A stretch of DNA of 64,000 bases, taken from the IMG/VR virus record IMGVR_UViG_3300037258_001195, positions 1 through 64,000 of that record. One strand, 5' to 3'. Shown here one piece after another: positions 14,363 through 64,000 of this stretch; position 1 is the stretch's first letter, and every line of letters starts with the position of its first letter. A program made the translations under genes and the position numbers. The notes beneath the pieces are model-generated. The model had not been told where the DNA came from and ran no database searches. It saw only the letters and a list, made by a program, of their open reading frames with translations. Origin of the DNA: a virus.

Positions 14363-15853
14363 TCAGCCGTTGCCGATATTGGTGATGACACCCATCGCAA
14401 ACGGGGCGTACACCGCCAGCACCTCCTCGGCATAGACGCCGACCTGGCGCTGCCGCGTCACCACCGGCCAGTCGATCTGGTAGTAGTCCTGCCGCGTCTT
14501 GACCTCGGCCACGTTGGGCACTTCGCTCGACTGGTACTGGATCGGCAGGTTCTCGGCCCAGCCGATGATCGTGCCCGGCGGAACGCGCGGGTGGATGCGG
14601 ATCGGGATGCGCAGCCCGCCGTTGAGCGCGAACGGGTTGAAATAGAACGACACCGCCCCAGCCGCGGCCAGATCATAGGCATTCCCATCCGCACTCACCT
14701 CATACCGCAGCAGCGGCGCCGACGCGTTCGACAGCACCTTGTCGGTGATGTTCTTCAGCTCCTGCACGTTGACGTACAGGACGGTCGGGCTCAGCTCGAA
14801 ATTGTTCCACATCGTCTGGAACATCGTGTCGATCTCGACGACCGAGCCACGCCCCGACGCAGTCAGCGGCGTGCCGGTCCCGGCGGTGCCGCTCGCCTGG
14901 GTCGCGATATAGGCGTTGGAGCCTGCCTTGAACGCGCTCGTCAACAGCCCGTCATAGGCATAGCTCGGGTTCGCCGAATTGTCGGCGCTGACCGCCGACT
15001 GCGCCTGCATGCTGCCGGCAAGCGGCGCCGAGAGCGCGGCGCTGTTGATCGTCGTGATCGCCTGCAGCGTCTCCGCCCCGGTCGACGTCCCGACATACCA
15101 CGCATAGGCGACGGCGCCCTGCAGCGCGGTGACGGTACAAAACAAGGTCTGCCCCGACGTCACCGCCTGGCTCGCCTCGGCGCTGATATTCGACGACCCG
15201 CCGGCGAGCGTATAGGAGTGACCGTCCGCCCCCGTGATCGGCTTTGTCGTCGCGACCCCGCCAGAGAGGCTCGAATTCTGGAAGCCTTCGAGCGTCAACC
15301 CCACGACCTTCACATAATAGGTCGTCGCCGGCAGGGTCCCGCCCGACCCCGAGGCCGACAGCACCGGCGTCGCCGGGGTGCCGAGCTGGAGCGACGCGTT
15401 GCCGCCGAGGATCGCCATTTCCTCCTTCAGCATCATCTTTTGCAGGAGCCGAAACGTCATCCGCGACTGGATGTCCTCAAACCCCCGGCCGGCGCTGATC
15501 GCCTCGTAGGTCGCCGCGTCCTCCTCGCCGATCGTCACAAACGTCGCCGATTTGGTCCCGGTCGTATATGACATCTGCGCCGAGCGCTGCCCCTCCGGGA
15601 CCCACCCCATCGCGTCATAGCCCGAGCCCACCAGCGCCGTCACCTGGCGCCAGTTCGTCGCCGTGCCCGTCCCGCCGCCGACCCGCGGAATGACATTTCG
15701 GATCGGTGTGACGAACGGGTACAAATTTTTCGCCGGCGCTTGCAAATCAAACGCGACGAGCCCCGTGCCCGTCGAGATCGTCTTGGCGATCCGGTCGTCG
15801 GGCGAGCGCAGCGCACCCTTGACCAGATCAAGCGTATCTTGTGTCGGATTCAT
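14363..15853 (-). CDS. HK97-fold major capsid protein with inserted domain
   Basis: A 496-residue major capsid protein. The N-terminal region (NLYPFVTPIRNVIPRVGG, VPEGQRS) and the C-terminal region (YQIDWPVVTRQRQVGVYAEEVLAVY) align with the module B capsid protein. About residues 158-285 form a beta-rich insertion (TPATPVLSASGS, TYYVKVVGLT) that looks like an Ig/fibronectin-type surface domain. The ATG at 15853 follows AAGGGAG; the codon before it is TTG. The gene is preceded by a terminator and followed by a palindrome, so its transcript may be handled separately from its neighbours. Confidence 0.85.
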   Translation of the reverse strand: MNPTQDTLDLVKGALRSPDDRIAKTISTGTGLVAFDLQAPAKNLYPFVTPIRNVIPRVGGGTGTATNWRQVTALVGSGYDAMGWVPEGQRSAQMSYTTGTKSATFVTIGEEDAATYEAISAGRGFEDIQSRMTFRLLQKMMLKEEMAILGGNASLQLGTPATPVLSASGSGGTLPATTYYVKVVGLTLEGFQNSSLSGGVATTKPITGADGHSYTLAGGSSNISAEASQAVTSGQTLFCTVTALQGAVAYAWYVGTSTGAETLQAITTINSAALSAPLAGSMQAQSAVSADNSANPSYAYDGLLTSAFKAGSNAYIATQASGTAGTGTPLTASGRGSVVEIDTMFQTMWNNFELSPTVLYVNVQELKNITDKVLSNASAPLLRYEVSADGNAYDLAAAGAVSFYFNPFALNGGLRIPIRIHPRVPPGTIIGWAENLPIQYQSSEVPNVAEVKTRQDYYQIDWPVVTRQRQVGVYAEEVLAVYAPFAMGVITNIGNG

Positions 15854-15880
15854 CAAAAACTCCCTTTGGGAGGTGGCAAC

Positions 15881-26526: not shown

Positions 26527-26780
26527 CACGGCAACATCTTCGGGATTGGTATGTAGTGGCTGGGCCGGTTGATCTCGGCGTCTTCCCAGCCCGTGACGAC
26601 CCACCGGTCATGCTTGTCGGACCAGCGACCCTTTGCGGCCCACCAGAGGCCGTAGTGCGTTCCGGGGCCGTCATCGTCACCCTGTAGCCGCGTGCAGCCG
26701 TCAGCGCCGATCCACCCATAGCGGATGAGGATAAGCGGCTCGCCGTCATGCCTCGGGGCATCCGCTATCGGGATCATCAT
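26526..26780 (-). CDS. conserved-looking small phage protein (Trp-rich)
   Basis: An 84-residue protein beginning with two ATG codons (26780 or 26777). It has ILIRYGWIGADG, HYGLWWAAKGRW and VTGWEDAEINRPSHYIP, a pattern often seen in small phage proteins of the query-type 'DUF551-like' kind (Trp-rich, ending in a WxP/IP motif). Membership is suspected, not proven. It belongs to a run of six overlapping small genes. Confidence 0.55.
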   Translation of the reverse strand: MMIPIADAPRHDGEPLILIRYGWIGADGCTRLQGDDDGPGTHYGLWWAAKGRWSDKHDRWVVTGWEDAEINRPSHYIPIPKMLP

Positions 26781-26784
26781 TCGA

Positions 26785-26961
26785 TCACCTTCGGCCAAGG
26801 TCTTCGATCTCAACGATGCGATGTTGCGGGTAGAAGCGGATCGCTGCCTGTTCGGCCCAGCCGCAATAGATCCAAACACCTTCGATAGTCTGTCGCCGCA
26901 ATTCTCCTCGGATCGTCTGATCAGGGTCGCGAAGTGTTGCGACAACATTGTTTCCCAACAT
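26785..26961 (-). CDS. small protein of unknown function
   Basis: A 58-residue protein, MLGNNVVATLRDPDQ at the start, then GVWIYCGWAEQAAIRFYP and IVEIEDLGRR at the end. It fits exactly between two other genes (stop of the previous one 2 bases upstream, next start 5 bases downstream) and reads as a small beta-strand protein. No family recognised. Confidence 0.6.
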   Translation of the reverse strand: MLGNNVVATLRDPDQTIRGELRRQTIEGVWIYCGWAEQAAIRFYPQHRIVEIEDLGRR

Positions 26962-26962
26962 G

Positions 26963-27259
26963 TTAGGCTCCGTGCAGGTGGGCCAGCGCCGCAGCGGACA
27001 GCCGGTCGGGTGGGGTCAGCTCGGGAGGGAGTGCCGGTTTCCACAGCAGCGCGCGCTGCTGTGGGATTGGGCCGCGCGAGGTGTGAACCGTCGTCGAACC
27101 GCGCTCGATCCACGATATCCAACGGTTCTCGGGAGGCGGATCGTCGCGCCATCCGAGAGCGATGAGCCGGGCATATCCGTCGTACAGGCACCCGATCGCT
27201 TGCCTGTCGTCAGGATAAGCTTCCGCGCGGCGGAGTTCCTGTTGGTCGAGGTAGCTCAT
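26963..27259 (-). CDS. small protein of unknown function
   Basis: A 98-residue soluble protein opening MSYLDQQELRRAEAYPDDR, with YARLIALGWRDDPPPENRW in the middle and a helical LSAAALAHLHGA end. The ATG overlaps the stop codon of the upstream lipoprotein gene. No recognised family; its packing within the lysis-end operon supports it being real. Confidence 0.55.
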   Translation of the reverse strand: MSYLDQQELRRAEAYPDDRQAIGCLYDGYARLIALGWRDDPPPENRWISWIERGSTTVHTSRGPIPQQRALLWKPALPPELTPPDRLSAAALAHLHGA

Positions 27260-35741: not shown

Positions 35742-38465
35742 TCAACCGCCAACCCATCCCGACGTGTTCCGAAAGGCGAGGCACGCCACCGAGCCGCCGC
35801 CGGTGAATGTCCCACCGAAACTCGGGCACGATGTAAGTTGGTCGGTGACGTAGGCGATATCGCCAGCAGCTCCCGTGGGAAGCGATGCTACGGCAAAGCC
35901 CTTAAGCCGAGCGAGCGAACCGAAAACAATCTCTCCCGTGCCTTTGCCATTCAGTCCCAAGGCGATATTGGTGTCGCTGCCAACGGCCTCTATCTCGACC
36001 GGACTGCCTGCGTGGGAGGCAACGAATGCGGGATAATTCGCATTGGCAATTCCCCCACCGCCGCCCGCGAATTCCGCGAAATTTCCTAAACTAGTGGTAT
36101 TATCTACTGTACTATATGATGTGATAAAAAAGTTGGCACCGTTCGTCACTCCGAGAGTGGCGGTAGAATGGCCCGCGCCGACGCACAGGTTGTTGCCCTC
36201 AAGCATGCAACCACTTATCGTCAGATTACCGCCGGAAGCCAGGTCGATTCCGGTCGCGATTGTGCTGGCACTGGGTACTACAGCAGCCATTAACGAACTG
36301 GTCGTGGTTAAGGGCCATTGCTGATCTGAGCCCCCGACGAGGATTGCCTGGTTAACCGATGCCCCCGACTGGATCGAAGTGATCCATATTCCAGCACATT
36401 CGCTGTAAACGTTCGTGCAGCCGACATCGCCGTTCCACAGGGCAAGCGTGAGGCCGACCTTGTGTTGCGAGAAAACGTTCGCTTGCAGCCCGTAATCAAT
36501 CTCAAGCCCCTCGACCGAGTGAAGATAAGCGTTGCCGCTGGCTGGAGTTTTCCCAAGCTCTTGAATTCCGAGACCGTAAAAATCCCCGATCCCATTGCCG
36601 CTGCCAGAAGTTCCCCCAAGATTCACCTTGATCGTTTGACTGAAAAGCGCCTCCGGCCAGTAAGCGTTTCCGTTGACTTGCGAGCCGCCGGCATTATCGA
36701 TTGTCTGGTTAAGCGCCAAGACTGAACCAGATCCCTCCCACGAGCCACTCAACGTCATATCGATTGACAGGCAATTTACGGCATCAGGGCTGCTCACGCC
36801 GATTGTCGGCGCGCTGACGCTCGACGTACAGCGGATCGCGTTGATGGGCTGCGTGTATCCTTGCGTCAACAGGAGCGCGGTGCTGATCGTCGAATCTCCG
36901 GCGAGCGACGACACGTCGTAAAAGCCGGTGTTCGCCGCCCCGAACGCGCCCGAGATCGTAATCGCCGGCGCCATCGCAAGATTCGTCAGCGGCGTCGTCT
37001 GGCCGAGCGCCGCGTCGTCGATCGTACCACTGCTGGCCGTAAGGTTCGGCGTTTTAGTGCCAACCCCAGTCATTACCGAGACATTGCCCGTTGCAGTATT
37101 GGTGATGCTAGTCTTACTACTAAGTCCAACAATATTAAGATAGCCCCACGCTCCACCCTGAACAACTACGGCACCGCCGACTTCCACATTCGACACCGAA
37201 GCAATAGAATTCACCGCACCATCAACCGTCAACGTCCCTGAAATATACAGATTCGCGAGATTTAGTGCATCGTATTGAACAGCCGGAAGCGTGAAGGATG
37301 AGACGAAAAGGAAATCATCGTGAAAATTATCTTCAGTCATTACCGACGCTCCTATGTCAAACATAGGCAATGTCGGCGCATTTATAGTCGTATTGGCAAC
37401 ATTAAGCCTGAAAGGCGGCATGGTAGCGTCACTATGAATAATGGCAACGCCATTTCCAAGCGACATATCCACAACACTATCATCGAGAGTAATAATGCCG
37501 TCTATATATGAGGCAACATTGTAATAGTCAATAAAATAATCCGGAGACTGACTTCCCAGATTATATTGGCAATTTGTGCAGATAATTCCATTCGGATTGG
37601 TTCCGGTAATTCCCCAAAATGAAATCGAGGTTGCCTGATCGCCGCTCCCATTCAGTCCAAATCGAGCATTACTGATATATAGCTCTGGAAAACTATCATC
37701 AATAGTATGGCGACCGGTTAGGTTCCAAGTATATAAGTTATTACAATGTGCCGATACTCCATTTTCCCATTCAAATCCATTAACGGCATTATAGGCCATG
37801 AGATTGTTGCAGTGGGAATTATTTCCCTGAAACGCGATTCCGGTTGCGCTTCCGCTGGGCGTTCCAGCAAAGGAGACAAGCAAGTTTTCGACATTGCCGC
37901 CGGCAGCAGTTGCCCCCGACACCCCGAAAGTTGCACAAACGCCTGTTACTGTATCATCGCAGATAATATGCGGTCCAAGGGGAGTATTAGTCGGGGTAAT
38001 TGCTGATCCCCCGCGCACAATTGCCGACCCAAAAGCAAGTGCAAGACTAGACCGAAATGTAAGAGACGGGATAATAATCGGTGCAACATTCGCAGCAGAA
38101 TATGCAATAGCCTTGACAATACTCGCGTTCGCGTCCGTGCTTCCGCCTGGTACTGCCCCGAAATCACGAATGTCTATTCCGAGGGGATCAGGGTTAGCCT
38201 CCCACCGTCCGGTTGCAGGATTAGTTGCCGGCTTTATGCAACTACCTCCATCATCGGTGCACGACGACGCCCCCTTCCAATTAAATTGAATAGCGGGCGA
38301 ATCACCCGATGTCGCAAATCCCGTTCGAATTACTTGAGTATATTGTCCTGGAATCAGCGCGCGGAGGGCTGTATTGCTTTGAATTTGCGGAACTGAAACG
38401 GGGTCGGCATGGGCTGCGAACGCAAATAGGCCAGTAAACAAGATGCTTGCGAGTATTTTACGCAT
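35742..38465 (-). CDS. exported beta-helix fibre/spike-like protein
   Basis: A 907-residue protein. The ATG at 38465 opens a typical signal peptide (RKILASILFTGLFAFAAHA). Residues about 105-330 carry a pectate-lyase-like beta-helix start (GIDIRDFGAVPGGSTDANASI) and the remainder is repetitive beta strands with many NxT/GSxT turns; the end (FRNTSGWVGG) is fibre-like. It resembles the module A protein at 19627-22197 in architecture but has no repeat array. A signal peptide on a tail spike is unusual. Confidence 0.7.
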   Translation of the reverse strand: MRKILASILFTGLFAFAAHADPVSVPQIQSNTALRALIPGQYTQVIRTGFATSGDSPAIQFNWKGASSCTDDGGSCIKPATNPATGRWEANPDPLGIDIRDFGAVPGGSTDANASIVKAIAYSAANVAPIIIPSLTFRSSLALAFGSAIVRGGSAITPTNTPLGPHIICDDTVTGVCATFGVSGATAAGGNVENLLVSFAGTPSGSATGIAFQGNNSHCNNLMAYNAVNGFEWENGVSAHCNNLYTWNLTGRHTIDDSFPELYISNARFGLNGSGDQATSISFWGITGTNPNGIICTNCQYNLGSQSPDYFIDYYNVASYIDGIITLDDSVVDMSLGNGVAIIHSDATMPPFRLNVANTTINAPTLPMFDIGASVMTEDNFHDDFLFVSSFTLPAVQYDALNLANLYISGTLTVDGAVNSIASVSNVEVGGAVVVQGGAWGYLNIVGLSSKTSITNTATGNVSVMTGVGTKTPNLTASSGTIDDAALGQTTPLTNLAMAPAITISGAFGAANTGFYDVSSLAGDSTISTALLLTQGYTQPINAIRCTSSVSAPTIGVSSPDAVNCLSIDMTLSGSWEGSGSVLALNQTIDNAGGSQVNGNAYWPEALFSQTIKVNLGGTSGSGNGIGDFYGLGIQELGKTPASGNAYLHSVEGLEIDYGLQANVFSQHKVGLTLALWNGDVGCTNVYSECAGIWITSIQSGASVNQAILVGGSDQQWPLTTTSSLMAAVVPSASTIATGIDLASGGNLTISGCMLEGNNLCVGAGHSTATLGVTNGANFFITSYSTVDNTTSLGNFAEFAGGGGGIANANYPAFVASHAGSPVEIEAVGSDTNIALGLNGKGTGEIVFGSLARLKGFAVASLPTGAAGDIAYVTDQLTSCPSFGGTFTGGGSVACLAFRNTSGWVGG

Positions 38466-38470
38466 TTCAT

Positions 38471-39079
38471 TCACCACCAATTCGTTCCGTCAAAATTAAA
38501 CGTCTCTTTTTGCCCGCTAGTTACCAGCGCGAACGAAGCTAGACCGCGAATCGTTCCAGACGATGGAGTTATTGTGCACGGGTAAGTGCCGAAATTATTT
38601 CCTGTGTCGATGAAAGCCACATTACTATTTGTGCTGTAATCAGACTTTAAAGTTACCGTAATCGGCGCTGACGATGTATTATCCACATACACAGTCGTAT
38701 ATGGATGGTCAATAGTTTCATTCGTATGAATGGTAGTTGCAAGACCTATTGTGGTTCCGCTGGAGATGGCAACCCAAACCGCGTTGCCAGGAGTAACTCC
38801 CGCGCTTACACAAATATATAAGCTCTCGGTATCTGTATTATACCACAACGACCCCGCGCCGAAAAGCTGCGTGTAGTCGTTATCTGCGGTTGGACTAGAA
38901 TCCGAAACGTTATTTCGTTGATTTAAGACATAACAACCGATTGCAATGAGGAACGCGACATCAATTACGTTCGCGTTGTAGATTAACTGATATATATCAG
39001 AGGCATAGATATTTCCACTGGGGCAGCCTATTGTCTGCTCTGCCGATGGTGTCCAAATGAAAATGGTTGGTCCAGCCAT
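38471..39079 (-). CDS. fibre-like protein after the tape measure
   Basis: A 202-residue protein without signal peptide. The segment LWYNTDTESLYICVSAGVTPGNAVWV and the closing KETFNFDGTNWW are typical of phage fibre or receptor-binding proteins. Its ATG overlaps the tape measure stop. It probably belongs to the tail tip and host recognition set. Confidence 0.6.
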   Translation of the reverse strand: MAGPTIFIWTPSAEQTIGCPSGNIYASDIYQLIYNANVIDVAFLIAIGCYVLNQRNNVSDSSPTADNDYTQLFGAGSLWYNTDTESLYICVSAGVTPGNAVWVAISSGTTIGLATTIHTNETIDHPYTTVYVDNTSSAPITVTLKSDYSTNSNVAFIDTGNNFGTYPCTITPSSGTIRGLASFALVTSGQKETFNFDGTNWW

Positions 39080-51454: not shown

Positions 51455-52849
51455 TTAAATTTCTCCTCGATTCAGCCGACTATCGGCCAGTTTACGAACG
51501 TATTTGATAACCCGAGCTACGGAATCAGTCCACGTCAAATCTCGCCCCTGCGTGAAGATCCTAAAATCTTCATACCACGGCGTTCCGACGGGTGAATCCC
51601 ACCATCGCCAGCAACGAGTGTACGGTCCGAGCATTACGACTGGCTTACCCATCGCTCCCGCGAGATGCACCACTGCGCTATCGACAGAAATAACCAGGTC
51701 CAATTCCTGAATAAATCGGGCGGTGTCGTAGAAGTCCTCAATGGCGTGCATAGAGTCGAGCATAAGCGCTTCTGCGCCAAGGGCAAGGACCTCTTTAGAT
51801 TCTTCGCCTTTTTGCAGTGAAATGACCTGAACGCCAGGAATTTCCATTAATGGAAGAAACATTGAGAGCGGAATAACTCGACGCCGAAGGCTCAATGTTT
51901 TCCCGTGATCGCCAGAAGACCAGCAAAGACCAATTTTAAATTTACCAGGAATTCGGCGAATAAGGGGCTCTTTTACAGTCAAGTATGGTTCCGACGAAAT
52001 ATCCTTCGGCATAATTTCCGAATGCCGAATCATACTCAGCATGGGTGTGTGAAAGTCAAAGTTCTTCGCATTCGCCTCAGGTGGAAGACTTTCACAATCC
52101 CAGACCTGAATATCCGGAAAGTTCTCCGCGAACAAACGGACCAAAGGTGCTGCGGTAGCTAAAACGATGCTCCGGGTCCGCGTAGAGAGCTTCGCCAAAA
52201 ATCGAACGAACATCAGACTATCGCCATAGCCTTGTTCGTGATGGACTAAGATGCGTTTTTCGTCTAGATTCTCTCCCTGCCATTCAGGGATGCCAAGGTT
52301 CCAGACGGGATTCTTATACAATTCCTCCCACCGAATCTCATAAAGTGGAAGACCCTGGTCGAGGCGCCCTTGCGACATAATCGTTAAAGCGTGATCGTTC
52401 TTGGTTGCGTAGGCGTCGTAACCCAAAGCTCGCGCGCGCACCATCGCGTCTTCGGCGTCAGCGAACCTATTCTGACGATACAGCAACGTCCCGTAAGTAT
52501 GCCAAATTGCCGGATCACTTGGCTTAAGCCGCCTAGCTTCTCGCAATTGCTCCCGGGCGCCATCAATCCGACCAAGCGCAACCAAATTAATCGCCAGGTT
52601 GTTCCGCGCTTGAAAGTCCTTTGGATCAATTGCAACGGCGCGCTGCCCGACGGTAATTCCCATCTCATGCTTCTGGAGCTTGTAGAGGATTCCCGCTAGA
52701 TTCGACAAAACAACCGAATTATTCGGATCAATAAGAAGTGCTCCCATGTAATGGACGCGAGCGATTTCAAATTCGCCAGCCATTTGATGCTGGCTACCTT
52801 TGAGATTCAGCCCGTAAATTCGACGAATCGAATTATCATCCAACGGCAT
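51455..52849 (-). CDS. TPR-repeat glycosyltransferase (GT9/GT41-like)
   Basis: A 464-residue fusion. Residues 1-170 are tetratricopeptide repeats (ALLIDPNNSVVLSNLAGIL, AVAIDPKDFQARNNLAINL, ARRLKPSDPAIWHTYGTLL). Residues 190-460 form a GT-B-type transferase domain like those linked to TPRs in many bacteria: HHEQGYGDSLMFVRFL, LCWSSG, and VISVDSAVVHLAGAMGKPVVMLGP, the donor-binding signature. Located between portal and protease; module A has a TPR protein in the same slot. It may glycosylate virion proteins, with the TPR part binding the target. Confidence 0.8.
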   Translation of the reverse strand: MPLDDNSIRRIYGLNLKGSQHQMAGEFEIARVHYMGALLIDPNNSVVLSNLAGILYKLQKHEMGITVGQRAVAIDPKDFQARNNLAINLVALGRIDGAREQLREARRLKPSDPAIWHTYGTLLYRQNRFADAEDAMVRARALGYDAYATKNDHALTIMSQGRLDQGLPLYEIRWEELYKNPVWNLGIPEWQGENLDEKRILVHHEQGYGDSLMFVRFLAKLSTRTRSIVLATAAPLVRLFAENFPDIQVWDCESLPPEANAKNFDFHTPMLSMIRHSEIMPKDISSEPYLTVKEPLIRRIPGKFKIGLCWSSGDHGKTLSLRRRVIPLSMFLPLMEIPGVQVISLQKGEESKEVLALGAEALMLDSMHAIEDFYDTARFIQELDLVISVDSAVVHLAGAMGKPVVMLGPYTRCWRWWDSPVGTPWYEDFRIFTQGRDLTWTDSVARVIKYVRKLADSRLNRGEI

Positions 52850-52876: not shown

Positions 52877-53575
52877 TTACGACCCAGTCAACGGCGCGTT
52901 GAATGAGTACATGAAGCCATAAGTATGGGAGGCGTTCGGCGCACTCGACGGCGTAATGGTTGCCAACGTTACCGCCGATGCGGTGCCAACCGTTTCATCC
53001 CCAGCATTCGTCGTCTCTTTAATAAAGACAACATCTTTTGCACCGGGATTCACTGGAACCGAAATTGCGGCAGTCGAATCGATCTGAATGCCCGGCGAGG
53101 TGCCACCGACAAGACCTGCAACGGTCGGCGCGGAGAGATGCACGATACCTTTCGAGGTAAACGTCGTTGCGGTCCCGCTTGCCGGAGCGGCAAGAGAGAA
53201 CACATCAACTTGGGACGTGCCATCATTGGCGAGATATGGAATCGAGATCGTGCCGCCTGTTACGGCAGACGTCCCCGCAGCAACAACAACGGCACCTTGC
53301 CGCGGAACGTCTGGTTGCGCCGCAACCGAAAGCGTGCCATTCGCAAGCGATGTCGAGCCGACGAATTTCCCGGCCGCCGCAGCAACAACTACGGGAGTCA
53401 TGCCGTAGTTGAAGACTTGTGCAACGAGAAGTTCCGCCCCAGCAGCTAAGAGCGCAGAAATATCTCGCGAATCAACATTCGCCGTCCCGTCGGCCCCAGC
53501 AACATACGTCCCGTAATTGCCGACAATTTGACCGCCCAAGCTCCCAATAAACATTTTCACAGTCGACGAAGCCAT
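52877..53575 (-). CDS. virion-type beta protein (putative decoration protein)
   Basis: A 232-residue Ala/Thr/Val-rich protein with repeating beta-strand patterns (VVVAAAAGKFVGSTSLANG, VVVAAGTSAVTGGTISIPYL). It sits downstream of the portal among head genes. A decoration or head-fibre role is likely from composition and place only. Confidence 0.5.
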   Translation of the reverse strand: MASSTVKMFIGSLGGQIVGNYGTYVAGADGTANVDSRDISALLAAGAELLVAQVFNYGMTPVVVAAAAGKFVGSTSLANGTLSVAAQPDVPRQGAVVVAAGTSAVTGGTISIPYLANDGTSQVDVFSLAAPASGTATTFTSKGIVHLSAPTVAGLVGGTSPGIQIDSTAAISVPVNPGAKDVVFIKETTNAGDETVGTASAVTLATITPSSAPNASHTYGFMYSFNAPLTGS

Positions 53576-53589
53576 AACGTTCTCCTAAT

Positions 53590-56073
53590 TCAAGCGTTAA
53601 GTTGTAACCAACGGGGGCCGGAAGAAAGCCTCTTCTTAGTCTTCTTCATTCTCTTCTTCCGTTGCGGGCCTAAGTCCCTAGAAACAAGATTCGTTCCGGT
53701 CGAAATGGTATCCATCTTCTGGACCAACGCACCTCGACGTGCAACGATAGTTCCAAAGCCTTGCCTAGCAATCGCATGTTTGTGGTCGCCAGTCTTGAGC
53801 CATCGCTTAAACTCGTCCATCGACATCGCGACCATCGCGCCGAGACGTTCTGGACCAAGTCCATCTCCGTTCGAAGCGAAATAATCGTCCATCACGGCTT
53901 TGGATTTACGATATCCAAGAAAGACCTTGTGTTCGTCGAATAATCCGGTCTGCGCGTCAAACTGATCCACCACGAAGACAAACGGGCTTTTAGGATGTCG
54001 GCCGATGCAGACATCAATCTGATCTCCATCGGCGCCCAAGGTTCCGCGGAGATATCCGTAATCTCCGGCCATTTTAGATGACCATTTCGTCCCGTCATCT
54101 TCATGCCCATGGCGTTTCTTCCCCTTCGGGGTTTCAATCGAAATGCTTAACCCTTGAAGCCAAACATGGGCTTTTTTGTAATTTCCGGCTTTCTTCTGGT
54201 GCTTTGAGGGTTTCTGGACATCTTTGGTCGCGGCGCGCAGGACGGAGTACGCGAGCTTGTGGATTGTGGTTGGAGTTCCTGAAGGCTCCCCATGAGGCCG
54301 TGGCGAGCCGCGCTGCGCGGTGTTCTCACCTTTTGGCTGCGGGCTTCCATCCCCCTTCGGCTTACTACCCGACAATTTCGGCTTACCGCTCGCGTCGTCG
54401 CCTAGACTTCCACTACCCGGCGCGAACTGTTGCCCCTCAACTGCCATGTGAAGAGGGACAATTCCCGCCCCCGTCGTAACAGTTGCAATATCCCCATCGT
54501 CGGCAAACGGTTCTTCACCAAGCTCGGCGCGAATTTCATTCCGAGTCCGGACTCCTTCGTTGATCTGAATTTGCTGAATCTGAGCTTGTTTTAGCAAATC
54601 AACTTCGGGCCGTGGAAGATAGACAAATTCGACATCGTCATAGCCAAAGGCATTTATGATCGGGTCAATTACGTCGTCTTTCCACCAAGTCATAAGGGGG
54701 TAGAGACCCTCTTCCTCGGCAGTCTGTTGTGCGTTTTGCGCCGTCGAGCGATTGGTCTGTTTGATGAATGGAGTTGGACTAACCGAGAACGCATAACATG
54801 CTAGGCGGATTAGCATTTCATCTCTATTGGACCAGAGACTCTCACCCGAAGCGTTTTTAATGTCGAAAGGTTTCATCCCACCAGGAACGAAACGGACCTT
54901 CGATTTGAGAGTCAGATTCCCCGAGAGAACTGCATCGAAATGGGCTTGAAAGGATGCAATCTGGCGTGGCGTCCATTGATCTGGAACAGTCACGATTAAC
55001 TCGGGCATCGAGCCATTACGCCAAAATTCAGCCTGATAAAGGGTTTTTCGAATCGCCTCGGTCGTTTCGATAAGCATTTGTTCAATAGGCGAATAGCCGA
55101 ACATCGGAAGTTCGGGTCGGGGTCGCATAATCGGATAATGAAGCTCATCTTCCGACAAATTAATCATCGGAAGCCCGTAGATGATCTGTTGAAAGGCTGG
55201 CTGGCGACGGATGTAGGTTAGCCCGTCGGGACCAACTTCAACCGTCGTATCGGGACGCCGGCCCGTGTCGTCGATCAGGGGAAAGATCGTCGCGCCATCA
55301 AGAACTTGGGCATATTGAACTTGGTCCGTTCGATCGCGACTAATGTAGATACTGGGAGCGTCGATGTCGAAGAGATCGAAAAGCAGCTTTCGCGACCATT
55401 GGGAATAGCTCATCTTCCCGTCGGGCTTGCGAAAAACCTTCTTCATGTGCTCGACGCCAATAGAAGTCTGGCGTGGTTTGTCTTTACGTTGAATCGTCCA
55501 GGGAATCCGAAGCAACTGGTCCATGCGGGTTGATTCGACCGTCGCCAGAACGCCCCAAGAACTCCGCATCGCGCGAAGCATTCCATAAAGGGCCATACGC
55601 TTGGGGACGTAATTTAGATTATATCCAACCGGAAAGTCCCATTCCCGGGGAACGTTGTAATAGGGCGGACCAAAGGGCCAAACTGGCTCCATTGGGCTAT
55701 ACCAGACATTCGCCATATCAACGTCGTCAATCCACGGCGGCGGCTGAGATAGACGCTCGTCGGCGTATTTGGATCGACTAGGGTAGTTCTCATTTCCCCC
55801 AGGAACACCGAACTGTTGCGGAAATTGCTTCAGTCCGGTTCCTTGGTTTCCAGACGGGCGATTTCGGGGGCCGGTGGGGGCAAATGACGATGTGTTCTGA
55901 TACGCCCGCCCCACCATTCCAACACCAGGGTTGTAGCCGGGGGAGACGGGAATTCCGCGCGACTTAGCGAAATTGTCTTTATCTTGCGACCATTCCGAGA
56001 AGCTCTGACGCGGACGTGGCGAGAATTGATCTGCCTGAAGGTCGCGGAGCTTCGTTAGGAATTCATCATTCAT
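53590..56073 (-). CDS. portal protein fused to an InPase-like (polyvalent protein) domain
   Basis: An 827-residue protein. Residues about 130-530 form the portal (REWDFPVGYNLNYVPKR, LDGATIFPLIDDTGRRPD, FGYSPIEQMLIETTEAI, TPFIKQTNRSTAQ). After a basic Pro/Gly-rich linker, residues about 635-757 match the InPase-like domain of phage polyvalent proteins: GDYGYLRGTLGADGDQIDV, FVFVVDQFDAQTGLFDEHKV, SMDEFKRWLKT. The ATG at 56073 is preferred over an earlier one. The final 50 residues are basic. The fusion could place the domain inside the head for injection. Confidence 0.85.
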   Translation of the reverse strand: MNDEFLTKLRDLQADQFSPRPRQSFSEWSQDKDNFAKSRGIPVSPGYNPGVGMVGRAYQNTSSFAPTGPRNRPSGNQGTGLKQFPQQFGVPGGNENYPSRSKYADERLSQPPPWIDDVDMANVWYSPMEPVWPFGPPYYNVPREWDFPVGYNLNYVPKRMALYGMLRAMRSSWGVLATVESTRMDQLLRIPWTIQRKDKPRQTSIGVEHMKKVFRKPDGKMSYSQWSRKLLFDLFDIDAPSIYISRDRTDQVQYAQVLDGATIFPLIDDTGRRPDTTVEVGPDGLTYIRRQPAFQQIIYGLPMINLSEDELHYPIMRPRPELPMFGYSPIEQMLIETTEAIRKTLYQAEFWRNGSMPELIVTVPDQWTPRQIASFQAHFDAVLSGNLTLKSKVRFVPGGMKPFDIKNASGESLWSNRDEMLIRLACYAFSVSPTPFIKQTNRSTAQNAQQTAEEEGLYPLMTWWKDDVIDPIINAFGYDDVEFVYLPRPEVDLLKQAQIQQIQINEGVRTRNEIRAELGEEPFADDGDIATVTTGAGIVPLHMAVEGQQFAPGSGSLGDDASGKPKLSGSKPKGDGSPQPKGENTAQRGSPRPHGEPSGTPTTIHKLAYSVLRAATKDVQKPSKHQKKAGNYKKAHVWLQGLSISIETPKGKKRHGHEDDGTKWSSKMAGDYGYLRGTLGADGDQIDVCIGRHPKSPFVFVVDQFDAQTGLFDEHKVFLGYRKSKAVMDDYFASNGDGLGPERLGAMVAMSMDEFKRWLKTGDHKHAIARQGFGTIVARRGALVQKMDTISTGTNLVSRDLGPQRKKRMKKTKKRLSSGPRWLQLNA

Positions 56074-56109
56074 AGCAGGCCTTGCACAACGCCAAGCCAT
56101 TCTGGACAA

Positions 56110-58219: not shown

Positions 58220-58254
58220 AAAAATGGACCGCTCAACCTCGAAAGGGAGCGGTC
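58220..58254 (-). terminator. terminator-like hairpin before large terminase
   Basis: On the minus strand GACCGCTC and GAGCGGTC (8-bp stem, 12-base loop) are followed after two bases by TTTTT. It closes the upstream operon (62.5-58.4 kb) and lies only 25 bases before the TerL start, so it could act as an attenuator of packaging gene expression. Confidence 0.6.
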
Positions 58255-58406
58255 CTAGTTCCTGCCCAAGTCCTCAAAGCTGCCAGCGCAATGCACCAGC
58301 ATGATTTATAATGAGTGACTGGGAGGGGGAAACGCAAGCGGAATTTTCGTTAAACTAAGAATTCTTGAGTTGGTATCCTCTAATGAGCATACAACCATCT
58401 TCCATC

Positions 58407-58883
58407 TTACGTCAGCACTTTGGTTGCGAAGTCTCGACGTATCCTATTCGTCACGACCCACGGAGCGGTAGTGCAGATGCGTTCGATTCCCCGAGTGTAA
58501 TATCTCTTAACTTGATACCCACTGGTTTCCAATTCGTCTGCTATTCGGCGCCAATTGTATAATCGCCGCCCAGTTATAGGATGTAGGAGGGTCCGCTTTC
58601 TTACCGTCTTACGCATCCGCCGAGTATAGACTTCATCGGTAACTAGGATGTAATTCGGAAGGAGGAGAATGTCTTCCATTAGTCCGATTTCGTTCGGCCC
58701 AGGCGCGGCGATACGGAGGCCGATTCTAGCACGAAATTGGACTACTTCGAAAATGTCTTGAGAGAAATCGGGCCACCATCCGGCGCCCTCAGATGGTCCA
58801 ACTCTTCGGCCCGGCATCGCGATGAGGCGTTGTCCGGCCCATTCGAGCCAACTTTCCAATTCGCTTGGCTCGACCGTTGCCAT
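58407..58883 (-). CDS. DUF6362-type phage protein
   Basis: A 158-residue protein matching the pattern of DUF6362: an N-terminal LEWAGQRLIAMPG helix, a middle VVQFRARIGLRIAAPGPNEIG, and a helical C-terminal part with RRLYNWRRIADELETS. The last segment resembles sigma-like or homeodomain-type DNA-binding helices, and such genes usually sit just before the terminase. A role in transcription or packaging is inferred. Confidence 0.6.
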   Translation of the reverse strand: MATVEPSELESWLEWAGQRLIAMPGRRVGPSEGAGWWPDFSQDIFEVVQFRARIGLRIAAPGPNEIGLMEDILLLPNYILVTDEVYTRRMRKTVRKRTLLHPITGRRLYNWRRIADELETSGYQVKRYYTRGIERICTTAPWVVTNRIRRDFATKVLT

Positions 58884-58884
58884 A

Positions 58885-59085
58885 TCAATGCAGCCTCGAC
58901 TCTTCTAATTCATGAACAGGACAACACGAACCAAATGCAAGGTGCCCCGGCCAAGGTTGAGTTTTTGGGCACGTACATCCTTGCATTTGGGCTGACTCAC
59001 TGCCGGGAAACGGATCTGGACGAAATCTCTCATGTCCGGCGGGTAATGTGACTGTTATTATGTCCTGATTATTATCGTTTGCCAT
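58885..59085 (-). CDS. small cysteine/histidine protein
   Basis: A 66-residue protein with a C-terminal QGCTCPKTQPW, then SCCPVHEL, a Cys4/His arrangement that could bind a metal. It begins one base after the upstream methyltransferase stop and ends one base before the DUF6362 start. Unassigned. Confidence 0.6.
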   Translation of the reverse strand: MANDNNQDIITVTLPAGHERFRPDPFPGSESAQMQGCTCPKTQPWPGHLAFGSCCPVHELEESRLH

Positions 59086-59086
59086 C

Positions 59087-59755
59087 TCATCCGTTCCAAT
59101 CGACGATTCCGGTTCCGGTAAAATGGCCGAGAGATGTCAGATCCATTTTCGGGTGCGCGATGTCCCGCCAAAGATAGATCATATTGGGCTCGCGTATGTC
59201 GTCGAAAATCACAATTGGATTATTGTCGAATTCAGCATTATCCAGAAGTCGTATGAATTTATGTTCTGTTTTTCCATCCTTGGGTCCGTCAACGAAAATT
59301 AGATTTGCTGCTTTGAATACGGGAAGCTTGAATAATGTAGGGTCTATCATATCTCCAGTTAATTGGAGAATTCGACCATTGGCGAAATCGGAATCCTCAA
59401 ACCAATTTTCCTTGTATTTAGTATTATCGACCGTGATGATATTGCAATTTGCAGGAGCACCTTCTGCCAGGGCGATGGTTCCCATTCCGGTGTAAGTGCA
59501 AAATTCCCAGATTATTTTCGGCTGGAATAGCTTTGCGGCACAGGTCAATAGGTTGTAATGTTCTCCAGGCCAATGCTTAAACCAAGGGTATAAGCCGTCT
59601 CGATTTCGATTTGCTAACAAAGGGTGCTCAACGGTCGAGATATGTTCACCAAGGTATTCGACGAAATTCAAGATTCTTCCACTTGGACCTGAGCTAGGAT
59701 CATCGTCGAGAGAGATGAGCCGGCTTGGATAGTCCCAACGGGGTTTTGTGCTCAT
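59087..59755 (-). CDS. class I SAM-dependent methyltransferase (Methyltransf_24-like)
   Basis: A 222-residue methyltransferase. The SAM-binding region is around WEFCTYTGMGTIALAEGAP, followed by an acidic strand end ITVDN, and NLIFVDGPKDGK and VIFDDI as later landmarks. Members of this group methylate small molecules and sugars. It overlaps the next methyltransferase gene by 4 bases and belongs to the glycan cassette. Confidence 0.72.
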   Translation of the reverse strand: MSTKPRWDYPSRLISLDDDPSSGPSGRILNFVEYLGEHISTVEHPLLANRNRDGLYPWFKHWPGEHYNLLTCAAKLFQPKIIWEFCTYTGMGTIALAEGAPANCNIITVDNTKYKENWFEDSDFANGRILQLTGDMIDPTLFKLPVFKAANLIFVDGPKDGKTEHKFIRLLDNAEFDNNPIVIFDDIREPNMIYLWRDIAHPKMDLTSLGHFTGTGIVDWNG

Positions 59756-60339
59756 AATGGTTTCTCCGCTTCAAAGGTCATAGTTTCGAGTTGGAGGAAT
59801 CCGGGCGGCATTCGGGAATCGTTCTCAAGGTTCTGGAAGGTTTCATCCTCGCTCTTTCCGATCGCGCACCGTTTGAAGTCTCTAAATCCGACTGAATTCA
59901 TTGTCAGACACAAGGCTTCTTGGGTATATATGAATTGATGTCCCCATGCCCGAACGAAATTATTTACGACGTATGCTACCGAAAAGGATGAGTGGCCCTG
60001 GGGAAGTCGAAACTCCCGCGCTGCCCAATTTATGTAATTATGTCGTTCTAGGCCAGCGGGGTCGGACAAGAGGGCGGCGAGGAACATGAGGTCGGGGGTT
60101 GAGATTCGAATGCGCCCGCCGGGCTGGAGGACTCGATAGCATTCCGCGAGCATGTGTAGTCCATCTTTCGCACTTATGTGCTCGATCATGTGCTCGGAAA
60201 AGATTCTGTCGATCGAATTGTCGTTGAAAGGAAATCGCTTTGTTGCATCAAGGAATGTTGTGTTTTCGCGGCGACAGATGTCGGCATTGATCCAGCCGTC
60301 TAGCGGATGATCGCCGCAGCCGATGTTGAGCTTCTTCAT
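59752..60339 (-). CDS. SAM-dependent methyltransferase (Methyltransf_11-like)
   Basis: A 195-residue methyltransferase. MKKLNIGCGDHPLDGWINAD is motif I, FSEHMIEHI and VLQPGGRIRISTPDL are the post-motif signatures common in methyltransferases of polysaccharide and O-antigen clusters. Placed between a glycosyltransferase and another methyltransferase. Confidence 0.8.
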   Translation of the reverse strand: MKKLNIGCGDHPLDGWINADICRRENTTFLDATKRFPFNDNSIDRIFSEHMIEHISAKDGLHMLAECYRVLQPGGRIRISTPDLMFLAALLSDPAGLERHNYINWAAREFRLPQGHSSFSVAYVVNNFVRAWGHQFIYTQEALCLTMNSVGFRDFKRCAIGKSEDETFQNLENDSRMPPGFLQLETMTFEAEKPL

Positions 60340-60340
60340 C

Positions 60341-61192
60341 TTACGGCCTCGCTAGGACAGAATCGCAAAACTTGTCGAAAACTTCAGCGCCCGATGGCTC
60401 GGTTTCTTCCCATCGCTTCAGGCCGTCGATAATCTCATACAGGGCGTGGAGGATGTCGTTCGTTGCGAGATATTGATCTTTTCCGGGGCCATGCTGAGCA
60501 TTTTGCAGTCTCTCGAATGCAAATTCCCAGACGTCTTTCGGTGCCCGCATTCCGCTGCGATCTTTCTGGTCCGTATAGCGATTGGTTTTTTCGAGCCACG
60601 CCGAGATGTCTTCGTGGGAGAGATGGTCGATATAGACGGGAAAATCTGGACCTGATGGTGCAATATTTCCGACAATCTTTGCCCCCGCATGTACGGTGTC
60701 AGTTCGTTGTATTGCACCTTTTCGGTACAACGTTGGGCGATATTCTGGCCAATATCTAGCACGCGGATCATGACGACCGAGAATCCAATGTTTGATCGGG
60801 ATCATTAATACGTCAAAATTGGGGGCGCCTGGTATACTGTCGTTGTTAACAAAGTTTCGCAGGAAATATTCTGCCCCTTCCGAGAGGATCTCGTCGTCGT
60901 CGAGGCAAATTCTCCAGTCGTGTGTGCAGAGGATGTCAGCAAAAGCGCGAGTTGGCTCGACGGTTGGGGACCAATCTGTTCGCTGATATTTGATATTATA
61001 TTCACGCAATATATCTACATTCACTAATTTGGGAAATAGGAATGCGCTATCACGTAATATCTGTCGTTTATCAACTAGAATAAGTTCATCAACCCAACTA
61101 GCAGCTTTAAGGGTTGCGGCCAAAATCTTGTCGCTTCTGGTTCCCGCTGTTATGATGAAGGCGCTGATTGGGGTCTGTTTGATTTTGCTCAT
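60341..61192 (-). CDS. GT2-family glycosyltransferase
   Basis: A 283-residue GT-A-fold transferase: ISAFIITAGTRSDKILAATLKAA opening, WVDELILVDK, and the metal-binding DDDE in ICLDDDEILSEGAEYF. Later motifs include RPTLYRKGAI and IDHLSHEDISAW, frequent in polysaccharide GT2 enzymes. It overlaps the oxygenase gene (ATGA). Expected to transfer a sugar from a nucleotide donor in the cytoplasm. Confidence 0.82.
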   Translation of the reverse strand: MSKIKQTPISAFIITAGTRSDKILAATLKAASWVDELILVDKRQILRDSAFLFPKLVNVDILREYNIKYQRTDWSPTVEPTRAFADILCTHDWRICLDDDEILSEGAEYFLRNFVNNDSIPGAPNFDVLMIPIKHWILGRHDPRARYWPEYRPTLYRKGAIQRTDTVHAGAKIVGNIAPSGPDFPVYIDHLSHEDISAWLEKTNRYTDQKDRSGMRAPKDVWEFAFERLQNAQHGPGKDQYLATNDILHALYEIIDGLKRWEETEPSGAEVFDKFCDSVLARP

Positions 61193-61833
61193 GGCTCGAT
61201 TGCCTCTTGCAGATAGTATTCTCCGGGGACAAACTTCAGTCCCTGATTGACGCTTTTGCCTGCGTGAGTTGGGTCAAACAGGCGAACGGGAAGGACTCGA
61301 AAATCAAAGCTGACTCGAGTGGTCTTTGTGTCGTTGATCAAGTTTCCATGTCGAACGCGATTAGCGTCGAACATGATTGCTTGGCCGAAATGCGTGTTAA
61401 TTGGAATTGCTTTATGGCTTTCATCTTCGATCCAAATCGAATTGGATCTTCGGGCGTCGGTTAGGGGAAGCCAAAAGTTCACCTCTCCCTCCGGGTGGCC
61501 GTACTTGAGGTCCGTGTGAAATTCGCCGACGGCTTTGTTGCCAATTAGGCTAATTCGAAATGTCGGGATTGCCTGAACATAAAAGGGTTCGGTGATTATA
61601 GGGCCTACAAACTCACGTATGAATGCGGTGTAGAGGGTTTTCCAGGTTGAAAACCCGGCATAAAGTTTTTTGTGAAATTCTGTCTGTTGGTCGTCCTCGC
61701 GTTTGCGGACGCTAATTCCATAGCTGTAAAGTTTTGATAAGTCTGCTGTTTCTAGCGTCTTTGCTGTTCGCGTTGCGAAAGGAAATTCTTCGGTCGAGTA
61801 TTGAAGGACTCGATATAGCTCGGGAGTGGTCAT
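61189..61833 (-). CDS. 2-oxoglutarate/Fe(II) dioxygenase
   Basis: A 214-residue double-stranded beta-helix oxygenase. Iron ligands are H106 and D108 in FHTDLKYG and H162 in RVRHGN; R173 in TTRVSF should bind 2-oxoglutarate. The pattern GNKAVGEFHTD and SIWIEDE resembles oxygenases of antibiotic (StrG) and sporadic carbohydrate clusters, which hydroxylate or oxidise sugars. Lying between two glycosyltransferase genes, coupled to both, it probably modifies a sugar; a nucleobase target cannot be excluded. Confidence 0.8.
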   Translation of the reverse strand: MTTPELYRVLQYSTEEFPFATRTAKTLETADLSKLYSYGISVRKREDDQQTEFHKKLYAGFSTWKTLYTAFIREFVGPIITEPFYVQAIPTFRISLIGNKAVGEFHTDLKYGHPEGEVNFWLPLTDARRSNSIWIEDESHKAIPINTHFGQAIMFDANRVRHGNLINDTKTTRVSFDFRVLPVRLFDPTHAGKSVNQGLKFVPGEYYLQEAIEP

Positions 61834-62501
61834 GGGAGTTCCTTCCACTCGATCTTAGACCGCACATAGTTGTTAGCGAGTGATTTCCAGTCCAGATATT
61901 CGGCCGAGGGGAGGACTTTCGGAACGTTGAAGATTCCGTGGAAGCCGAAAGTCGACCTCGGTGCCTCGCGCTCGAAGGAGAATTCGCTCGCTACGTCCAA
62001 TGGTGCCCACTGAAATCCTTCGGCCTCTAGGGCGGGTCGATATTCTCGGCAGAGGGTTTCGTCTTCGGGAATGATTGGGGGAAATTTAGTTGGGTTGTTG
62101 GCAAGAAATCGCATCAACTTCGTTGAGCGGAGGCTGAATCCGCCGTTTCCGACATTATGGCTGGTATGCCACGGCCAGGGTGCTCCGATATAGTCGTATT
62201 GAATCCAACTGGGATTCCAGCGGGTTCCGTCGAGAACGAAGCCGTCGTATTGGATGTGAAGGACGTGGGAAGCTAGCACCCCAATACCTGCTGGAGAACT
62301 CCATCTAGCACGTTCGACTTCCTCCATTGATCGAATACAATGATAAAAGTTTGTAGTTTCTCCGGTAAAATTTCTGTCAGAGATGCAAATAATGTCTGCG
62401 GGGGTGATTTCCTCTAGTGTTTTATTGATTGCTAATTGGGTTAGCTCGTGCGCCACGCAATCGATGACGAGGACCGCAACATTGGGAAGGTTCGTCGGCA
62501 T
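61830..62501 (-). CDS. DUF5672-type putative glycosyltransferase
   Basis: A 223-residue protein of the DUF5672 type, found with sugar transferases. The family's features are present: HIQYDGFVLDG, QYDYIGAPWPWHTS, VGNGGFSLRSTKLM, the acidic PEDETLC and the FGFHG closing motif. It opens the coupled cassette; its stop overlaps the oxygenase start. Confidence 0.8.
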   Translation of the reverse strand: MPTNLPNVAVLVIDCVAHELTQLAINKTLEEITPADIICISDRNFTGETTNFYHCIRSMEEVERARWSSPAGIGVLASHVLHIQYDGFVLDGTRWNPSWIQYDYIGAPWPWHTSHNVGNGGFSLRSTKLMRFLANNPTKFPPIIPEDETLCREYRPALEAEGFQWAPLDVASEFSFEREAPRSTFGFHGIFNVPKVLPSAEYLDWKSLANNYVRSKIEWKELP

Positions 62502-63024: not shown

Positions 63025-63216
63025 TTAGGCAGCTAGACGATGAATTGGGTGGGAGCTAGATTTGTCGTCTGTCTCCCGCCCAGCACGGACTTGGACCACC
63101 TTGGGTTGGGGCACCCTAGGGGCTTTGACGATCTTGTCCTCAATTCGCTCCACGAGCCAAACGGTTGGACGCCGTTCGGTTCGGCCCCAAGGACCAGGAA
63201 GTTTAATTTCAGTCAT
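63025..63216 (-). CDS. small basic protein after small terminase
   Basis: A 63-residue basic protein (GPWGRTERRPTVWLVERIEDKIVKAPR) that overlaps the small terminase end by 8 bases. Function unknown. Confidence 0.5.
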   Translation of the reverse strand: MTEIKLPGPWGRTERRPTVWLVERIEDKIVKAPRVPQPKVVQVRAGRETDDKSSSHPIHRLAA

Positions 63217-63814
63217 CGTCTGGTTCCTTTCTATCTGGGGTTACGTCGATGATTTCCTTCGGGCGAAGGTCCCGAGTTCCAATGTTGAAGGTGATTTTGG
63301 TCGGGATATTCGCGGCGGGCGTTGCGGTTTTCGGCGGCGCGACGGTTCGGTCGAGCGCCATTTGGCTAATCTGGCGCAGCTCTCCTAGGGGGATTTGCTT
63401 TCGCTGTTCGTCATCCTCTAGTCGGTCTCTAATTTCGGCCGACGCGGTTTTTGCGATGTCGATTAGCATGGCGTCGACTTCGACTTTGGCGTCGATGTTT
63501 GCGTCGGCCATCGAGGCTTGGTAGGTGGCTACCAGTTCCGAAAAGGCTGGGTCTTTGCAGAGGTCCGAAACTCGTTGGGGCGTGTAGCCGGTCAGGAGGG
63601 CGACTTCGCGCATCGACTTTCCCGCCGCAACGCCCTGCGCCGCGCGGTGATGTCGACTGTGAAGTCGCTGGATCATCTGGGGTCCGATTAATTTTCCGCC
63701 GCCGCTCATGGCGAGCGCTGCGAAATCGCCGGGGGTTAGCTCCCGCTCGACCTCCATCATAATCAGACTTCCGGGGCGGCCGCGTTTGGGAAGGAGATTG
63801 GTTGCATTGGACAT
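63209..63814 (-). CDS. small terminase subunit-like DNA-binding protein, module B
   Basis: A 201-residue protein. After an unstructured start, residues about 70-100 form a helix-turn-helix (GKSMREVALLTGYTPQRVSDL) followed by DPAFSELVATY, the arrangement of many phage small terminases. The C-terminal part is helical and charged. The ATG at 63814 follows AGGAGAG. It shows no resemblance to the module A small terminase. Expected to recognise the packaging site. Confidence 0.68.
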   Translation of the reverse strand: MSNATNLLPKRGRPGSLIMMEVERELTPGDFAALAMSGGGKLIGPQMIQRLHSRHHRAAQGVAAGKSMREVALLTGYTPQRVSDLCKDPAFSELVATYQASMADANIDAKVEVDAMLIDIAKTASAEIRDRLEDDEQRKQIPLGELRQISQMALDRTVAPPKTATPAANIPTKITFNIGTRDLRPKEIIDVTPDRKEPDDD

Positions 63815-63849
63815 TTTTACTCTCCTTTCTAAATGCGGGATGAGGAGGT

Positions 63850-63885
63850 CTAGATTTTTCGCCGGAGATTGGTTGCATTTGTCAT
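63850..63885 (-). CDS. leader-like 11-codon frame duplicating the small terminase start
   Basis: Starts ATG at 63885 after AGAAGGAGA and encodes MTNATNLRRKI. The next gene, 35 bases downstream, begins MSNATNL after its own AGGAGAG. The start region has thus been duplicated, leaving a short reading frame in front of the small terminase. It may be a translational leader or a recombination scar. Confidence 0.45.
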   Translation of the reverse strand: MTNATNLRRKI

Positions 63886-64000
63886 CTTCGTTCTCCTTCT
63901 CAAAAGGGGTTGGTTGGACCGAAGGAACATAAAAGTTGGGAATTTTCTGTGAACGCCTACTACGTTCTCTCACCGGTCCAGGCTTAGAGGGGACCCTATG

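Follow-up and report, generated by a model that had tools for sequence, protein, structure and literature searches.

To our knowledge, chemical proof of virion glycosylation exists for only a small number of cultured phages, most of them actinobacteriophages. The glycosyltransferases encoded by phages Che8, Corndog and Myrna are described as glycosylating capsid and tail-tube proteins (Freeman et al., 2023, as cited in PMC12363180, PMC12619734 and PMC13313380), and PMC13313380 makes the same suggestion for the Rhodococcus cluster CB phages on the basis of a glycosyltransferase and methyltransferase pair. Here, we analyze a gene cassette located on the minus strand, at positions 58,885-62,501, of a 64,000-nt stretch of viral DNA (the window; positions 1 to 64,000 of IMG/VR record IMGVR_UViG_3300037258_001195). 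Together with a separately encoded tetratricopeptide repeat protein that carries a glycosyltransferase domain (TPR-GT), this cassette probably constitutes a late-expressed pathway that puts an O-methylated, hydroxylated glycan on a virion surface protein, a target suggested by genomic association. Enzyme classes, catalytic motifs, gene coupling, conservation of the module and its association with virion genes were all computed and are described below.

The cassette encodes five enzymes. The first, a DUF5672 protein (61830..62501), passes the Pfam gathering cut-off for PF18922 (1.5e-16; 61 versus 24.4 bits). Its AlphaFold model (pLDDT 91.9, pTM 0.90) retrieved glycosyltransferases throughout among the PDB matches listed, and the Asp of its Q(W/Y)D motif and a VGxxGF motif are invariant in 15 homologs. 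Judging from this model, it is a GT-A-fold glycosyltransferase. The adjoining gene (61189..61833) encodes a PhyH-like protein whose HxD...H motif and distal Arg are invariant among homologs and whose structural model (pLDDT 70.8, pTM 0.74) matches PtlH, phytanoyl-CoA hydroxylase and EctD, all of them PhyH-like small-molecule hydroxylases. By motif and modeled fold, the predicted protein is a 2-oxoglutarate (2OG)-Fe(II) oxygenase; sequence comparison makes it a relative of TIGR04324, the 'sporadic carbohydrate cluster' oxygenases (5.1e-14), and its bacterial relatives reside in sugar-gene clusters. Our literature search on DUF5672 and the 'sporadic carbohydrate cluster' returned nothing relevant. 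The third enzyme (60341..61192) is a putative GT2-family glycosyltransferase. Its own sequence is silent in Pfam and its homologs match PF00535 (1.6e-14), with an invariant DDDE motif. GmaR, the flagellin O-GlcNAc transferase of Listeria, is the sole convincing relative found by a profile search of the PDB (22ao, 1.2e-15), and the homolog in contig L118 weakly matches the peptide S-glycosyltransferase SunS (1.1e-4). Two methyltransferases complete the set. MT11 (59752..60339) is a class I S-adenosylmethionine-dependent enzyme of the Methyltransf_11 family (PF08241, 4.9e-10). The second (59087..59755), likewise silent in Pfam by its own sequence, is a class I O-methyltransferase-like protein whose homologs match Methyltransf_24 (PF13578, 2.8e-6 and 7e-5). 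Its profile gave weak COMT-type matches in the PDB, and it has invariant acidic positions (D156 and D185-D186), which we take to recall those of metal-dependent sugar O-methyltransferases. For the oxygenase, the second methyltransferase and the GT2 protein, PDB searches with single sequences yielded nothing useful; profiles worked for the GT2 protein and weakly for the other two.

All five genes are coupled by ATGA overlaps or 1-nt gaps, as the initial annotation had proposed. They form part of a run of seven minus-strand open reading frames (ORFs) in tight succession, with junctions of -4, -4, +1, -4, +1 and +1 nt, in which an ATG at 61833, internal to the listed GTG ORF, serves as the start of the oxygenase gene and creates an ATGA overlap with the DUF5672 gene. 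The count of six enzymes, with TPR-GT included, was likewise correct. Other elements of that description were borne out in part. Both of the small genes said to follow the enzymes exist. One, a 66-aa ORF at the cassette end (58885..59085; a 1-nt gap on each side), has no match in Pfam, PHROG or NCBIfam searches. The other, a 158-aa gene (58407..58883; phrog_6836, 6.5e-7), belongs to the packaging backbone and is retained as 27-47% identical copies directly upstream of the large terminase gene (TerL) in relatives, with or without cargo. The terminator assigned to the operon is also real (58226..58255, between the 158-aa gene and TerL). It is a strong hairpin (58255-58226; about -26 kcal/mol for the folded 52-nt stretch) and the sole perfect-stem terminator in the 36 kb scanned, with none in shuffled sequence. 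It closes the 158-aa gene, and a terminator-like site recurs in the equivalent gap in two relatives (L142 and L156). The 158-aa gene and the terminator are therefore conserved packaging backbone rather than the cassette's own. Finally, the cassette had been placed between the small and large terminase genes. The TerL side of this statement holds, with a nuclease-like gene on one side of the five-enzyme block and, towards TerL, the conserved 158-aa gene on the other. The small-terminase side is less certain: the gene so called (63209-63973) has no significant Pfam or PHROG match, and the nuclease-like gene separates it from the cassette.

The link to the virion is provided by TPR-GT, a TPR protein (51455..52849, minus strand; TPR_2, 1.2e-15) with a GT9-like C-terminal glycosyltransferase domain (Glyco_transf_9, 3.4e-6). 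The gene directly upstream, on the same strand (52877..53575), encodes a protein with 22% Ser and Thr, which we propose as a candidate glycan acceptor. In most relatives, the gene at this position likewise encodes a 52877-type protein (18-26% Ser and Thr). A short protein of 109 aa stands in its place in L015 and L143, as does a collagen-like tail fiber in L149 and L151, where the fiber stop codon directly abuts the TPR-GT start. Because of its position and the tail fibers that take its place, the 52877 product is likely a virion protein. In an isolated cyanophage, a gene downstream of tail-fiber and BNR genes encodes a single protein in which a TPR-GT-like part is fused to an MT11-like one, and in an uncultured podovirus genome, genes for a TPR protein, a methyltransferase and a GT8 protein follow the capsid gene. 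The coupling of TPR-GT to fibers, the cyanophage fusion and the podovirus gene order together point to a virion surface protein as the acceptor, most simply the 52877 product, an assignment made by association.

The cassette recurs in divergent phages. Exact-peptide scans of viral contigs missed the relatives of the oxygenase, the GT2 protein and the second methyltransferase, which were recovered via MT11, and a tblastn search of 50,697 phage records gave no match to the oxygenase or the GT2 protein. Contigs L118, L119 and L120 each carry homologs of all five enzymes in one block (36-49% identity), and L121 and L123 give matches identical to those of L120. The set is thus present in no fewer than three separate phage contigs, whose structural backbone is unlike that of the window phage. 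There, the block occupies another position among the late genes, flanked by a gp10-like gene and a tail gene and away from the terminase. L118 and L120 also carry TPR-GT, and the block of L118 includes an additional rhamnosyl-O-methyltransferase/CmcI-type gene (1.6e-21); the 7.8-kb contig L119 stops right after MT11. A further contig, L117, combines TPR-GT, DUF5672, GT2 and MT11 genes adjoining a 52877 homolog. The regrouping of five homologs in another phage backbone is not expected by chance, and sequence comparison thus identifies the cassette as a functional module rather than a fortuitous run of ORFs.

Within the lineage of the window phage, the backbone is conserved in the order terS-like gene, nuclease-like gene, 158-aa gene, TerL, portal, 52877, TPR-GT, small gene, protease and capsid, and its cargo varies. 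Almost all close relatives with contigs covering its site have TPR-GT, which is absent from the more distant L157. Among the contigs recovered, the window phage is the only member of this lineage with the full five-gene set. L016 has a DUF5672 and a GT9 gene at the cassette's own site, L142 and L147 have a DUF5672 gene directly after TPR-GT, L146 has one between TerL and portal, and L015, L145 and L156 have TylF methyltransferase genes next to portal. This recurrence of sugar chemistry in the variable cargo, as illustrated by GT9 in L016 and the TylF methyltransferases, supports a role in virion glycosylation. A scan of bacterial genomes with a TerL profile returned distant prophage-like relatives, none with the cassette, several of them in Alphaproteobacteria and others in different phyla, which points to no single host group. 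Two observations concern other parts of this region. At the cassette site of L014 (1331-1918) and L015 (8737-9324), we noted a protein that bears PPCT and IENP motifs and looks like a degenerate C5-methyltransferase, although it has no Pfam match. The portal protein (53590-56109) is extended at its C terminus (residues ~614-788) by a segment with matches to large phage proteins of several domains, among them PHROGs of the DarB-like antirestriction and endolysin types.

The initial annotation had contrasted the cassette-bearing module B of the record with a module A that has none. No homologous cassette is present in module A itself, so the statement is literally true. It loses its weight, however, because module A appears to be another phage whose close relatives carry the cassette. 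The record (92,987 bp in total) shows a fall in GC content near 28.1 kb, from ~67% to 52%, and its end (92460-92987) resembles window positions 26534-27247 at 90-94%, including 125 bp of exact identity. Moreover, the relatives G008 and G009 (~71 kb) each have a single structural set and an early set, both of B type, with the capsid gene of G009 wrapping the genome ends. Based on the GC break, the end repeat and the composition of G008 and G009, modules A and B most likely derive from two phages that were joined during assembly, making the record chimeric. The module A capsid protein (window 14363-15856) is 76-81% identical to those of cassette-bearing phages (L118, L120 and G006), and the cassette is most likely variable cargo in both lineages.

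In the pathway that we consider probable, TPR-GT would recognize a virion surface protein, likeliest the 52877-53575 product, and attach the first sugar, after which the glycan would be lengthened by the DUF5672 protein (GT-A) and the GmaR-like GT2 protein, with the 2OG oxygenase hydroxylating or oxidizing a sugar and the two methyltransferases O-methylating it. We infer the order of these steps, as well as the donor sugars, the glycan structure, the acceptor and the biological role, which may be that of a shield or of altering adsorption. The glycosyltransferase genes are located in the virion gene region or adjacent to it, and the earlier proposal of enzymes building a methylated, oxidized glycan on the virion or the host surface is upheld for the glycan cassette, with the virion now favored and the host surface less supported. 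Several observations nevertheless weigh against virion glycosylation. The 52877 product has no family match in Pfam, PHROG and NCBIfam searches, and the cassettes of L118-L120 lack a neighboring 52877-type protein. G008 has its DUF5672 gene in the early region. The match to GmaR is limited to the GT2 domain of that protein, the oxygenase scores 52.4 bits against a curated cut-off of 150 for TIGR04324, making it a relative rather than a member, and the substrate class of the second methyltransferase is deduced indirectly. In addition, PEP-CTERM-like exported proteins are encoded between TerL and portal in relatives (L014 4089-5519, L015 11495-12925 and L141 544-1242, recognized by eye; L151 8451-9233, Pfam 8e-4, just under the cut-off), which leaves room for host-envelope targets. 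Such cargo is unexpected within a structural operon.

These exported proteins bear on what we regard as the strongest, albeit unlikely, alternative, namely that the cassette alters lipopolysaccharide or exopolysaccharide during infection, for instance to block superinfection or to aid progeny detachment. GT9- and GT2-type enzymes and O-methyltransferases are known from bacterial envelope-glycan clusters, where relatives of the 2OG enzyme also occur, and a 912-aa tail protein (35742-38480) weakly matches an exopolysaccharide depolymerase family, suggesting a possible exopolysaccharide layer on the host. However, none of the cassette proteins has a clear transmembrane segment, the cassette includes no flippase or bactoprenol-linked enzyme, its genes sit among late structural genes, and TPR-GT is coupled to fiber genes. 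O-antigen conversion of the Gtr type was rejected, as it needs a membrane flippase and a membrane glycosyltransferase and the cassette proteins are without transmembrane-like segments.

Hypermodification of the phage DNA by base methylation, 2OG-dependent oxidation and glycosylation is very improbable. The cassette has a superficial likeness in gene classes to methyltransferase-TET-glycosyltransferase systems, and the early region of the record contains UDG-family (81829-83127), dCTP deaminase-like (83964-84497), deoxynucleotide monophosphate kinase (88212-88859; PF21448, 3.8e-15) and B12-type ribonucleotide reductase-like (89302-91317) genes. Yet the record has no match to C5-cytosine methyltransferases (PF00145) or the thymidylate-synthase family in searches with positive controls, the oxygenase has the modeled fold of a PhyH-like small-molecule hydroxylase, and the nucleotide genes are kept in G009, which is without a 2OG homolog. 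A search of the record for Tet_JBP gave no match, with the control equally silent. DNA modification was rejected as the principal explanation on the missing C5-methyltransferase and thymidylate-synthase matches and the oxygenase fold. Still less probable is an auxiliary metabolism of small molecules or nucleotide sugars unrelated to virion or envelope, which would fit the relatives of the oxygenase and methyltransferases in natural-product and sugar clusters but leaves the late placement and the TPR-GT/fiber linkage unexplained for a cassette without nucleotide-sugar synthesis genes. Taken together, the genomic evidence supports a virion target better than a host-surface or DNA target.

It is plausible, and we suggest it tentatively, that virion glycosylation of this kind reflects a modular mode of glycan writing shared across divergent phages. 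TPR-GT would start the glycan on a surface fiber, and an exchangeable, lineage-crossing cassette of DUF5672, 2OG, GT2 and methyltransferase genes, or of GT9/TylF alternatives, would set its decoration. A six-enzyme set that includes sugar oxidation and two methyltransferases, retained in divergent phages known only from uncultured sequence and tied to fiber genes, would imply that elaborate virion glycans are far more widespread. The analysis also defines the genes and a candidate acceptor for testing. The cassette has parallels in several known systems. Bacterial sugar clusters (e.g. L172, read by eye) combine a TIGR04324-like oxygenase, a TPR protein and a CmcI-like methyltransferase. Unlike the phage cassette, they are chromosomal and include nucleotide-sugar enzymes; the phage set consists of transferases and decorators only and must therefore draw on host sugar donors. 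Listeria GmaR, a flagellin protein glycosyltransferase, shares a homologous GT2 domain with the cassette enzyme, whereas the window phage has its TPR on a separate GT9-like protein and its acceptor is proposed by association. The capsid glycosyltransferase of the algal virus PBCV-1 (2p6w), an enzyme of viral capsid glycosylation, matches the GT-A fold of the DUF5672 model at rank 27, with a sequence identity of 9%. Among the matches listed for the six enzymes in the tblastn search of phage records, there was no mycobacteriophage, Che8 gp110 lying outside this comparison, and the 52877 product had no match in the phage-record search. The resemblance to Che8, Corndog and Myrna thus lies in phage-encoded glycosyltransferases, with glycosylation of virion proteins reported there and predicted here. 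The window phage differs from these actinobacteriophages in possessing a TPR-GT9 protein, a DUF5672 GT-A enzyme and a GmaR-like GT2 protein, plus a 2OG oxygenase. Relative to known virion glycosylation, what is new is this enzyme set, the putative sugar oxygenase and the evidence of a transferable module.

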